NCBI GenBank assembly: GCA_020248665.1
Contig: JADCHE010000009.1
Location: forward strand, 1 to 44,009
DNA: 44,009 bases
Reading direction: 5' to 3'
Source: Burkholderiales bacterium
Lineage (GTDB): Bacteria > Pseudomonadota > Gammaproteobacteria > Burkholderiales > Burkholderiaceae_E
Every line of letters begins with the position of its first letter. The first letter of the stretch is position 1. Below the pieces are notes generated by a model. The model had not been told where the DNA came from and ran no database searches. It was given only the letters and a program-made list of their open reading frames with translations. Positions 35,095 through 43,440 of this stretch are shown in pieces. The position numbers and the translations under genes are program-made.

Positions 35095-36224
35095 CCGTCG
35101 TCGGACGCTACCTCGCCCGCGAGATCGCGCTCGGCGTGGTGTTCGTGCTGTTCGGCTTCCTCGCGCTGTTCGCGTTCTTCGACCTCGTCAACGAGCTCGA
35201 CGACCTCGGCCGCGGTGCCTACCGGATCCAGCACGCGATCGCCTACGTCGCGCTGACGCTGCCGAGCCACGTCTACGAGCTGATGCCGATCGCCGCGTTG
35301 ATCGGCGCGATCTACGCGCTCGCGCAGTTCGCGTCGCACTCGGAGTTCACCGCGATGCGTGCGGCCGGCATGGGCCGCACGCTCGCGCTGCGCGGCGTGC
35401 TCGCGGTCGCGGCGGTGTTCGCGCTGCTGACCGCGCTGATCGGCGAGGTGGTCGCGCCGCCGGCGGAGCGGCTCGCGCAGAGCGTGAGGCTGTCGGCGAT
35501 CGGCACCGCGATCGGCGGCCAGTTCCGCTCGGGCATGTGGATCAAGGACACGCTGCGCGACGCGCAGGGCCAGCCCGAGGTGGTGCGCTTCGTCAACGTC
35601 GGCGCGCTGCAGCCGGACGCGTCGCTCGAGAACCTGCAGATCTTCGAGTTCGATCCCGACTTCACGCTGCGCGCGATCATCCGCGCCAAGCGCGCGGTGC
35701 ACGACGGCGCCTCGGCGTGGCGGCTGTCCGACATCGAGGAGACGCGCTTCGAGTCGGGCCAGACGCTCGACCGGCTTCCGACGCTGCGCACCCGGATCGT
35801 CAAGGAGGCCTCGCGCGACTGGCCCTCGGACCTCGGCCCGGACATCTTCCGCGTCGCGATGCTCCAGCCCGACCGGATGTCGCTGATCGGCCTGGTGCGC
35901 TATACGCAGCACCTGAAGGAGAACCGGCAGAACGCCGAGCGCTACGAGATCGCGCTGTGGAGGAAGATCGTCTATCCGCTCGCGGTGATCGTGATGATGA
36001 CGCTCGCGCTGCCCTTCGGCTACCTGCAGGTCCGCGCGGGCAGCATCGGGTACAAGGTGTTCGCGGGCATCATGCTCGGCGTGGCCTTCCACTTCATGAA
36101 CGGACTGTTCTCGCACCTAGGCCTGCTCAACACCTGGCCGGCATGGCTGTCGGTCAGCATCCCGAGCCTGTTCGCGCTCGCGGTCGCGATGGCGATGCTC
36201 GGCCGTGTCGGGCGGATGCGATGA
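35091..36224 (+). CDS. lptG: LPS export ABC transporter permease LptG
   Basis: 377 aa, GTG start within the lptF stop (GTGA). VVGRYLAREIALGVVFVLFGFLALFAFFDLVNELDDLG is the typical LptG first helix. ALIGAIYALAQFASHSEFTAMRAAGMG contains the coupling-helix region that contacts LptB. The periplasmic jellyroll lies at about 120-265, then four C-terminal helices (ALPFGYLQVRAGSIGYKVFAGIMLG). It is the second half of the LptF/LptG pair and its stop overlaps cbiX. Confidence 0.95.
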   Translation: MTVVGRYLAREIALGVVFVLFGFLALFAFFDLVNELDDLGRGAYRIQHAIAYVALTLPSHVYELMPIAALIGAIYALAQFASHSEFTAMRAAGMGRTLALRGVLAVAAVFALLTALIGEVVAPPAERLAQSVRLSAIGTAIGGQFRSGMWIKDTLRDAQGQPEVVRFVNVGALQPDASLENLQIFEFDPDFTLRAIIRAKRAVHDGASAWRLSDIEETRFESGQTLDRLPTLRTRIVKEASRDWPSDLGPDIFRVAMLQPDRMSLIGLVRYTQHLKENRQNAERYEIALWRKIVYPLAVIVMMTLALPFGYLQVRAGSIGYKVFAGIMLGVAFHFMNGLFSHLGLLNTWPAWLSVSIPSLFALAVAMAMLGRVGRMR

Positions 36225-36670
36225 GCGCGCACGAGGTCCGTACCGGGCTGGTGCTGTTCGGCCACGGTGCGCGCGACCCGCGCTGGGCCGACACGATGGC
36301 GGCGATCGCCGCGCGCGTGGCCGAGCTGTCGCCCGGCGTGCCGGTCCGGCCGGCGTTCCTCGAGTTCATGTCGCCCGACCTCGCCGGCGCGATCGACGCG
36401 CTGGTTGCCGAGGGCGCGCGCGCGATCGTCGTCGCGCCGGTGTTCCTCGCGTCGGGTGGCCACGTGCTGCGCGACCTGCCGGCGCGGCTCGACAAGATCG
36501 CGCAGCGCCACCCCGGCCTCGCGGTGCGCGTGGAGTCCGCGCTCGGCGGCCTGCCGTCGGTCGTCGACGCGATGGCGCGCCACTGCGTCGGCGCCCTGGT
36601 CGCGACCCCTGCGCCGATCGATGCACCGATCCGAGGCCCGGGGCACGAAAAAGGGGTGGACGGGCCGTGA
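36221..36670 (+). CDS. cbiX: CbiX-type sirohydrochlorin chelatase, single domain
   Basis: 149 aa. LVLFGHGARDPRWADTM contains the conserved metal-binding His of CbiX/CbiK chelatases. A second motif is APVFLASGGHVLRDLP, whose His is the other ligand. Such short CbiX proteins form dimers and insert cobalt, nickel or iron into sirohydrochlorin. The last 20 residues (PIDAPIRGPGHEKG) are not part of the fold. ATGA overlap with lptG suggests cotranscription without a functional link. The 3' end overlaps the likely promoter of the candidate sRNA. Confidence 0.88.
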   Translation: MSAHEVRTGLVLFGHGARDPRWADTMAAIAARVAELSPGVPVRPAFLEFMSPDLAGAIDALVAEGARAIVVAPVFLASGGHVLRDLPARLDKIAQRHPGLAVRVESALGGLPSVVDAMARHCVGALVATPAPIDAPIRGPGHEKGVDGP

Positions 36671-36685
36671 CAGCTTCGTTACCAT
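36657..36685 (+). promoter_or_regulatory. Candidate promoter of the downstream small RNA
   Basis: TGGACG (36657-36662), 17 nt, TACCAT (36680-36685): each matches four of six consensus bases, predicting a start near 36692. GTGACA (36667-36672) is a better -35 but has no good -10 at usual spacing. Confidence 0.4.
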
Positions 36686-36691
36686 CCTGCG

Positions 36692-36797
36692 CAATCTCGG
36701 GGCCGTCGCGACCGGCTCCCTGAACCGAGTATCGAGGAGGAGGAGAGGCAGCGACGCTGCCATTTCAAGGCGCACGGTGACGTGCGCCTTTTTCTTT
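36692..36797 (+). ncRNA. Candidate small RNA with exposed GGAGG-rich tract and intrinsic terminator
   Basis: Between cbiX and the glycosyltransferase gene the sequence folds into three stems without coding potential. Stem 1 pairs CTCGG (36696-36700) with CCGAG (36725-36729) and has an inner GCCG/CGGC. Next comes an unpaired purine run GAGGAGGAGGAGAGG (36734-36748), then stem 2 GGCAGC-GAC-GCTGCC (36747-36761), the linker ATTTCAA and a perfect terminator stem. The run holds overlapping Shine-Dalgarno-like GGAGG units, yet no start codon follows at usable spacing. From memory this resembles a betaproteobacterial 'toxic small RNA' family described in Rfam; I could not check. Alternative: a leader of the downstream gene ended by an attenuator. 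Confidence 0.62.
36769..36797 (+). terminator. Strong intrinsic terminator
   Basis: Perfect 8-bp stem GGCGCACG / CGTGCGCC with a GTGA tetraloop, followed by TTTTTCTTT. It would end the candidate sRNA and any readthrough from lptFG-cbiX, 35 nt before the next start codon. Confidence 0.92.
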
Positions 36798-36832
36798 GAC
36801 CCCGACCACCGGTCGACGATCCTCCCGACCCG

Positions 36833-38428
36833 ATGCGACCGTTCCCGACCCTCCGTGCCGACGATGCCGACGCGTGGCGCCGGACCTTCGTCGCCGCGCT
36901 CGCGGTCGCCACGCTGTTCCGCGCATGGCTGTCCTGGGCACTGCCGTTCACCGGCGACGAGGCCTACTTCTACTTCTGGGGCAAGAACCCTGACTGGGGC
37001 TTCTACGACCATCCGCCGATGGTCGGCTGGTGGCTCGCCGCGCTCGCGTCGATCTCCGAGCACCCGGCCGTGCTGCGGCTGCCCGCGCTGCTCGTGCCGA
37101 TCGGCATCGCGCTCGCGACGCGCGTGCTGCTCGCGCCGTGGGGCGCGGTGGTCTCGTACGGAGCGGCCACGCTGGTCGTGCTCGCGCCGCTCAACGCCGT
37201 CAACGTCGCGATCACCACCGACATCCCGCTGGTGGCCTTCGCGTTCCTCGCGATGGTCGCCTACCTGCGCGCGCTGCGCACCGGCCGCTCGAGCGACTAC
37301 CTGCTCGCCGGGTTGATGCTGTCCGGCGCGCTGCTGTCGAAGTACTTCGCCGGCATGCTCGCGCTCGCGATCGGCGGGCACCGGCTGGTCTCGCGCGCAC
37401 CGGGCCGCTGGCGCGGGTTCGCGCTGCTCGTGATCGGCAGCCTGCCCGCGGCCGCGGTGCAGATCGCATGGAACGCGGCGAACTGCTGGCCGAACGTGAT
37501 GTTCAACCTGATCAACCGCCACGACGGCGGCGCGGGCCCCTCATGGCGCACGCCGCTGCTGTACGCGGCGACGCTCGCGTACACGGTCGGCGTGCCGGTG
37601 CTGTGGGGGTTGCTGCGCGGACGACGCGGCGCCGACGCGCTCGGCGGCGCGGCGGGCCGCGAACGCGACGGTGCGCTCGCCTGGATGACCGCACTGCCCT
37701 ACGGCCTCTTCGCGGCGCTCTCGGTGGTCAAGACGATCGGCCTGCACTGGCTCGCCGCGTTCGTCGCGCCCGCGACCTGGCTGTATGCGCTGCGCGCCGG
37801 TGCCTTGGGGCCGGACGCGGCGGCGCGCCGGCTGGGCGTCGCGCTGCGGGTCGCGCTCGCGGTCGCGGCGCTCCACTGGATCGCGATCCTCGTGCTCGCC
37901 GCGTTGCCGACCGAGCGCTTCGCGAAGTGGCGCTCCTACCCCGGACTCGTGATGACCGTGCACGCGGACGAGTTGCTCGCGAAGCTCGAGCCCTGGCGCG
38001 CGAACCACACGTGGGCGACCGACGGCTACTCGCCGTCTGTGACGCTGTCCTTCGCCGACCGCGCCCGGCGCGACAACCGCACCGACCGCATCATCGTGTT
38101 CGGCCCGGCGTCGAGCCACGCGCGGCACGACGACATCCTCACCGACTTCCGGGCGCTCGACGGCCGCGACGTGCTGCTGATCCTGAAGAACGGCCCGCCC
38201 GAGCCGGGCCGCTGGGAGCCGTACTTCGAGCGCGTCGAGCGGCACGTGGTCGAGGTCCGGGGCGCGCGCTTCCACCTCGTGCGCGGCATCGGCCTGCGCT
38301 ACGAGCGCTACCGCGACGACGTGCTCGAGGCGGTCCGGCAGCGCTGGTACGCGGTGCCCGCGTGGCTGCCCGCGGGGCCGTGCTATTTTTGCGACCGGTA
38401 CTTCCCGGACCGGGCCTGCCACCGTTGA
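36833..38428 (+). CDS. Glycosyltransferase family 39-like membrane protein (ArnT/PMT type)
   Basis: 531 aa. N-terminal LPFTGDEAYFYFWGKNPDWGFYDHPPMVGWW has the acidic DE pair typical of the first periplasmic loop of GT39/PMT_2 enzymes, which transfer sugars from polyprenyl-phosphate donors. About ten hydrophobic segments run to around residue 350. A soluble C-terminal part (about 370-531) includes TDGYSPSVTLSFADRARRDNRTDRIIVFGP. Near the end CYFCDRYFPDRAC carries three cysteines. The acceptor is unknown; lipid A or another envelope glycan is likely. The following gene, which may make a polyprenyl-phosphate sugar donor, overlaps its stop (TTGA), supporting a shared pathway. No good ribosome site is seen at its ATG. 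Confidence 0.85.
   Translation: MRPFPTLRADDADAWRRTFVAALAVATLFRAWLSWALPFTGDEAYFYFWGKNPDWGFYDHPPMVGWWLAALASISEHPAVLRLPALLVPIGIALATRVLLAPWGAVVSYGAATLVVLAPLNAVNVAITTDIPLVAFAFLAMVAYLRALRTGRSSDYLLAGLMLSGALLSKYFAGMLALAIGGHRLVSRAPGRWRGFALLVIGSLPAAAVQIAWNAANCWPNVMFNLINRHDGGAGPSWRTPLLYAATLAYTVGVPVLWGLLRGRRGADALGGAAGRERDGALAWMTALPYGLFAALSVVKTIGLHWLAAFVAPATWLYALRAGALGPDAAARRLGVALRVALAVAALHWIAILVLAALPTERFAKWRSYPGLVMTVHADELLAKLEPWRANHTWATDGYSPSVTLSFADRARRDNRTDRIIVFGPASSHARHDDILTDFRALDGRDVLLILKNGPPEPGRWEPYFERVERHVVEVRGARFHLVRGIGLRYERYRDDVLEAVRQRWYAVPAWLPAGPCYFCDRYFPDRACHR

Positions 38429-43364: not shown

Positions 43365-43440
<76 letters not shown>

Follow-up and report, generated by a model that had tools for sequence, protein, structure and literature searches.

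The window analysed here, a 44,009-nt stretch of a Burkholderiales genome, contains on its plus strand, at positions 36693-36797, what looks like a stand-alone small-RNA (sRNA) gene. It almost certainly belongs to a real, conserved sRNA family that is absent from the Rfam copy searched. Its function is best explained, in our moderately confident view, by a Shine-Dalgarno-mimic sponge that titrates anti-Shine-Dalgarno RNAs. The features computed were the conserved RNA gene, its promoter-like boxes and stems, an invariant purine seed, and the presence and complementarity of both types of partner, namely the sRNAs of Rfam family RF02278 and a CU-rich hairpin in the 3' UTR of a phasin mRNA. No description of this purine-rich sRNA was found in the open-licence literature.

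The predicted RNA is 105 nt long, in agreement with the original prediction, which had guessed about 105 nt. That prediction had set the start at 36657, which is actually the first base of a -35-like box; the predicted RNA start is 36693, 7 nt past the -10-like box. The two boxes, TGGACG (36657-36662, plus strand, within the 3' end of cbiX) and TACCAT (36680-36685, plus strand), are separated by a 17-base spacer (TGGACG-N17-TACCAT). The upstream neighbour cbiX (36221-36670, plus strand; PF01903, E 2.5e-27) has its stop codon (36668-36670) in the sRNA promoter region, and the boxes overlap the cbiX end. All parts of the RNA are read on the plus strand: a 5' leader with a variable hairpin, SL1 (36693-36733); the purine seed GAGGAGGAGGAG (36734-36745); a single A; the hairpin SL2 (GGCAGC-GAC-GCTGCC, 36747-36761); ATTTC; and a terminator (36767-36797) formed by the 10-pair stem of SL3 (36767-36790) and the tail TTTCTTT. 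The downstream neighbour is a PMT_2-type glycosyltransferase gene (36833-38428, plus strand; PF13231, E 5.6e-14). The stem at 36767-36790 is the single terminator-like site in 36300-37100 (0.2 expected). The sole exact copy of GAGGAGGAGGAG in the window is the one at 36734-36745 on the plus strand, and three copies occur when up to one mismatch is allowed (0.32 expected). The compact non-coding RNA that had been proposed, with a purine tract between hairpins and a terminator, was borne out. A tRNA-Ala gene (anticodon CGC) lies at 43365-43440, close to the window end.

The promoter pattern was found 25-70 nt 5' of the tract in 34 of 77 homologues, against 0.28 expected from mononucleotide shuffles, for a pattern that was composed after several homologues had been inspected. 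By group, it occurs in 34/70 homologues of the family and in 0/7 of a second family (f17). The -10-like box in pattern-bearing relatives is mostly TAGCAT or TAGGAT. A generic sigma-70 scan of 36300-37100 gave no sites.

By DNA similarity, the element was detected in 37 of 61 relatives (own genome included), 36 of which are among the 37 family genomes; the one match outside the family (G048) aligns only bases 3' of the terminator. A covariance model built from 30 homologues (R1) located the element in 70/74 family genomes and 16/16 genera, and in 45 of the 47 family genomes of good quality; the stems are conserved well outside the genome of origin. There is one match per family genome, except in G072, where two contigs match. 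The model searches score only part of the first-look candidates (68 of 5893 in G000, for example), and model misses are therefore not proof of absence. Among 300 genomes sampled evenly from the order, R1 matched 25: ten of the family, seven of f17 (two genera) and eight others. A broader model, R2, matched 20 genomes of the same sample, the same 17 and three weak ones. On reading, seven of the eight R1 matches outside both families resemble terminators or tRNA ends hit by chance, while L108, with its GAGGAGGAGAG, may be either chance or a homologue; one further weak R2 match was also read as chance. The weak extra matches L284 and L285 (1501-1569), of genus g8, show a GAGGAGAGG tract, a hairpin and a terminator, and could be a shortened paralogue of the sRNA. 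An exact-pattern scan of named genomes returned, among the matches listed, many unrelated phyla, which we took for chance. One MAG contig, L190 (CAMBZS010000197.1), is probably mislabelled as Bordetella parapertussis, since its motif is placed as in C197, a contig of the family genome G029.

All 12 positions of the seed are unchanged in 70/70 family homologues (one per genome). The base directly after it is A in 60 of the 70, completing GGAGGAGA, which spans the last seven tract bases and this A. In the seven homologues of f17 the seed is shortened yet kept as GAGGAGGAG, in the variants GAGGAGGAGGGA (three) and GAGGAGGAGAGG (four).

The neighbouring genes change between loci. Of 30 loci (L003-L032; tblastn over about 1.5 kb, less at contig ends), 15 have cbiX nearby, nine the glycosyltransferase gene, and 22 one or both. 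The RNA persists in the eight loci that have neither gene nearby, and on this ground a 3' UTR piece of cbiX was ruled out. A Pfam scan of four neighbouring stretches named a family for one only (M17 peptidase), the other frames being guessed. Group II intron domains (L250:2962-3254) occur about 900 nt downstream of one sRNA homologue.

Compensatory changes among relatives had been suggested as a check, and they were found in nine of the 14 pairs of SL2 and SL3. They were counted in an alignment (A3) of 46 of the 77 homologues that was fitted to R1 and so leans towards the R1 structure. In A3, 98.6% of the SL2 and SL3 cells are paired, and 51 cells carry two-sided changes against 7.2 in shuffles (0/500 shuffles reach the observed value); slid versions of the structure have such changes in at most three pairs. 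By stem, SL2 has 97.4% of cells paired and two-sided changes in 4/6 pairs, and SL3 99.4% and 5/8. A MAFFT alignment of 30 sequences (A1) has 96.8% of cells paired and 15 two-sided cells against 4.4 in shuffles, these falling in four pairs, all of SL3 (4/8; SL2 0/6). In folding, SL2 and SL3 together have a mean z of -4.75 over the 70 homologues. The leader has a mean z of -2.18 over the 34 promoter-pattern homologues (79% below -1), but only -0.69 in the window itself. All three stems originally described are supported, the terminator by terminator scan and covariation and SL2 by covariation, the 5' hairpin being variable and weakly folded in the window's own leader. A single fold of 141 nt gives a modest z of -1.82, with 10 of 200 shuffles as good; the strong evidence for the RNA is its conservation, not the single fold.

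The tract had been described as exposed, which is only partly predicted. Its mean unpaired probability is 0.54 with the last 10 nt masked and 0.25 unmasked, against a whole-RNA mean of 0.41. The predicted folds have the tract paired with the RNA's U tail as long as nothing covers that tail, and open once the tail is masked; such masking might be provided by Hfq. A Rho-independent terminator with a U tail, as seen in Hfq-dependent sRNAs, is present. Of 25 genomes examined, 24 encode Hfq, and the own genome shows a pair of Hfq-domain matches, at C54:912-1085 and C57:40920-41105. Such a pair occurs in 12 of the 25 genomes, and 11 of these are among the 12 genomes of the own genus.

No sRNA family scored over its cut-off in the Rfam covariance search of the locus, the check proposed with the original prediction, nor at 12 further loci (eight with homologues and four phasin loci). 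Relaxing the search of 36560-36900 to E up to 5 brings up five families, all far below cut-off. RF02278 is not among them, and this bears on the suggestion that the RNA resembles a betaproteobacterial toxic sRNA family. The general plan is alike (an unpaired motif, a short hairpin, an AU-rich linker and a terminator), but the seed has the opposite polarity: the CUCCUCC motif of RF02278 does not occur at the tract, which reads GAGGAGGAGGAG instead, and the earlier likeness failed on this opposite motif (31/31 loci). In addition, RF02278 RNAs and the tract RNA coexist in one genome. Membership in RF02278 therefore has next to no probability.

Two further readings of the tract were weighed. The tract could be the true ribosome-binding site of a short mRNA or leader peptide: ATG, GTG or TTG lies 8-9 nt past it in 26 of 70 homologues, and several close relatives share a frame starting MLPF. 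The absence of a usable start codon, as originally stated, thus holds for the window, which has no ATG, GTG or TTG at 4-13 nt past the tract, and fails for these homologues. However, the other 44 of the 70, the window included, have no start codon at 8-9 nt, and the frames of start-bearing homologues diverge after a few residues, with lengths from 7 to over 500. With no frame common across genera, a leader peptide or real ribosome site was ruled out, and we consider it highly improbable. A CsrA/RsmA sponge acting through repeated GGA motifs, of which the tract holds three overlapping copies, is very unlikely, as CsrA is over cut-off in 0/61 genomes, own included. The sole below-cut-off match was in G036 (22.6 bits), and since controls rang in three genomes, the absence of CsrA holds at such sensitivity.

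RF02278 is instead a candidate partner. The own genome has two copies elsewhere (69.9 and 62.2 bits). Two features of a CrfA-like sponge are thereby present, a G/A-rich stretch that can pair with the motif of sibling sRNAs and those sRNAs in the same genome. Of the 61 relatives, 48 have RF02278 at E up to 0.001, and 40 of them over cut-off; in the family it is present in 35/37 genomes, the misses being G009 and G013. It also occurs in 188 of the 300 sampled order genomes; of the 17 clear carriers of the element in that sample, 16 have it (the miss is G013), a co-occurrence that spans only two families and for that reason is weak support. TCTCCTCC, the complement of GGAGGAGA, was present in 31/31 RF02278 loci read (fetched, high-scoring; 28 from the family). 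Between GGAGGAGA and UCUCCUCC there are eight contiguous Watson-Crick pairs, the maximum with RF02278. In the seven genomes of f17, RF02278 is over cut-off in four and matched at E up to 0.001 in seven; at a laxer E, 11/14 controls also ring. Six of 15 RF02278-like loci read in f17 have no [TC]CTCCTC. Diverged below-cut-off loci there carry TCTCCTCCTC (G282) and CTCCTCCTC (G052), which are complementary over 10 and 9 bases to the GAGGAGGAGA seed of their own genomes. CU tracts complementary to the 12-mer seed number 8 in the own genome, the same as for the reversed control, and so show no enrichment. Some 130 nt downstream of one RF02278 copy (L001:307-369) is an ORF that probably encodes ribosomal protein L13.

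Available excerpts of the literature on these RNAs describe the "double-hairpin" members of RF02278 in Burkholderia cenocepacia as having CU stretches predicted to cover ribosome-binding sites (PMC5688073). Overexpression of one of them, ncS27, slowed growth, and an artificial antisense to its CU region raised the growth rate (PMC5688073). Growth inhibition upon cloning in E. coli is stated for the family (PMC4603805, PMC5688073), the function of which in B. cenocepacia is called unknown in the accessible part of one report (PMC4603805). An RNA antagonist of RF02278 RNAs was not found in the open-licence literature.

The tract could also act on the ribosome itself, as had been suggested: an anti-ribosomal decoy would bind the 16S anti-Shine-Dalgarno sequence and sequester 30S subunits or compete with mRNAs. 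GGAGG does match CCUCC, up to eight contiguous pairs (G-U included) are possible with the 16S tail, and the accessibility-corrected helix of -5.4 kcal/mol, computed with an assumed 16S tail sequence, is near the -6.6 and -6.0 kcal/mol of the two RF02278 copies. Since these energies barely differ and both partners allow about eight contiguous pairs, thermodynamics does not decide. An optimised 16S binder would run on as AAGGAGGU. The tract repeats GAG four times instead, and its 12 bases are invariant in 70/70 homologues; a decoy also does not account for the complementarity in trans with the phasin 3' UTR, which in the own genome extends over 17 contiguous bases. We consider such a decoy possible but rather unlikely, and of the two pairings originally suggested for the tract we retain the one with CCUCC-type sequences.

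This phasin complementarity was found by blastn of the element against its own genome (E at most 0.01, with 13 of the 83 candidates scored), in which the one other match is antisense, at C65:14011-14035, with 96% identity over 25 bases (24/25). It falls just 3' of a phasin gene (PF09361, E 9.7e-24). The 3' UTR concerned (L312:1428-1570, on C65 of the own genome) has a CU-rich tract and a terminator-like hairpin and is near-antisense to the sRNA core. Phasin homologues occur in 34/41 genomes, and 30 phasin loci were fetched, one per genome with second copies left out (21 of the 22 family genomes with a match, and nine from other families). CTCCTCC or CCTCCTC lies within 130 nt past the phasin stop in 11 of the 21 family loci, against 1.4 expected from shuffles, and in 0/9 loci of other families (0.14 expected). 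Predicted folds place the majority of these 11 CU runs in an apical loop or leave them mostly unpaired. Four low-scoring RF02278 matches (G015, G016, G017, G024) sit right after phasin, and the phasin CU hairpins may therefore be relatives of RF02278.

The duplex energy between the seed region and the own phasin 3' UTR was below z -2 in eight of 21 genomes (20 of the family and one of f17, G002 having no element), with intramolecular structure ignored. The strongest duplex, with z -7.1 and 17 contiguous pairs, is that of the own genome, and G008 has 15 contiguous pairs. Three loci with the CU motif (G016, G021, G024) stay above z -2, as do the ten phasin loci that lack it, of which the lowest reaches -1.63. 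The phasin 3' UTRs pair roughly equally well with sister-species elements and with the cognate one, so species-specific coevolution is not shown.

These data could also be read as those of an ordinary trans-acting sRNA that regulates carbon storage, with the phasin mRNA 3' UTR as its main target, or other CU-rich mRNAs. The 24/25 complementarity, the motif past phasin in 11/21 family loci and the z of -7.1 for the own pair all agree with this. However, the motif is missing from 10 of the 21 phasin 3' UTRs of the family, yet the sRNA is found in nine of those ten genomes (the miss is G002), and the presence of TCTCCTCC in every RF02278 locus read speaks for another partner. We hold phasin as main target to be, on balance, unlikely.

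The Shine-Dalgarno-mimic sponge is favoured because motif-matching partners are present in the same genomes, because the complementarity in trans to a CU-rich hairpin is long, and because there are two precedents. In the proposed mechanism, the stand-alone gene would produce a trans-acting sRNA of about 105 nt, probably bound by Hfq, whose GAGGAGGAGGAG run would mimic a Shine-Dalgarno sequence and pair with the CUCCUCC stretches of anti-Shine-Dalgarno RNAs. Its partners would be the RF02278 toxic or double-hairpin sRNAs and the CU-rich hairpin in the phasin mRNA 3' UTR, and their sequestration would free ribosome-binding sites and relieve growth restraint. The tract RNA would thus be a natural version of the artificial complement of the ncS27 CU region. 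We infer that the RNA is transcribed, bound by Hfq and paired in the cell, and that it acts as sponge rather than as target. RF02278 is far more widespread than the tract RNA and so does not need the sponge, and as pairing with it reaches at most eight contiguous Watson-Crick pairs, RF02278 alone does not explain 12 invariant bases. Further points against the sponge are the family phasin 3' UTRs without the motif, the duplexes that stay above z -2, the A after the seed in 60 rather than all of the 70 homologues, the six RF02278-like f17 loci with no [TC]CTCCTC, the predicted pairing of the seed with the U tail and the lack of enrichment of complementary CU tracts. A more tentative possibility is a three-way circuit, in which the purine-rich RNA is a hub that titrates RF02278 sRNAs and the phasin 3' UTR competes for the hub, tying the carbon-storage state to global restraint of translation. 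The phasin 3' UTR has a CU-rich hairpin of its own and, in the genome studied here, also a near-antisense copy of the hub RNA core.

Two Rfam families below threshold were compared with the tract RNA. CcsR1 (RF02791, an sRNA with the CCUCCUCCC motif) matches on the opposite strand only, at 14.8 bits against a cut-off of 65.3; the match reflects the complement of the tract, none is listed on the transcribed strand, and the RNA is not a member. suhB/mmgR (RF00519) matches the transcribed strand over SL2-SL3 at 14.7 bits against a cut-off of 41, mostly through the terminator. The tract RNA has no CU-rich core of that kind and, being far below cut-off, is not a member of this family either. With RF02278 it shares the compact plan of motif, hairpin, linker and terminator and the same genomes (PMC5688073, PMC4603805 and PMC7011215, as far as the available text of these reports describes the family); the RF02278 motif CUCCUCC is, in contrast, complementary to the tract, and the family model has no match here.

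The closest functional likeness is to CrfA of Caulobacter crescentus, which the accessible portion of its report presents as an experimentally supported sponge with a G/A-rich stem loop that pairs with four anti-Shine-Dalgarno sibling sRNAs, SisA-D (PMC12559287). Like the RNA described here, CrfA is an independent sRNA with a G/A-rich stretch, which in CrfA pairs with the anti-Shine-Dalgarno 10-mer of its siblings and counteracts them (PMC12559287). The stretch of CrfA is located in a stem loop, whereas that of the tract RNA forms a 12-nt linker joining two hairpins. CrfA also belongs to another bacterial class; the putative partners here are RF02278 instead of alphaR8 RNAs, and the mechanism proposed here is inferred. 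MmgR, the namesake of RF00519, is placed in alphaR8 and linked to polyhydroxybutyrate in the same excerpt (PMC12559287), and the phasin link may echo this alphaproteobacterial RNA, though the parallel is suggestive only. A conserved natural complement provides a direct and testable handle on how anti-Shine-Dalgarno RNAs are restrained. If the proposed function is true, it would suggest that another bacterial lineage also uses the CrfA/SisA logic, perhaps linked through phasin to carbon storage.
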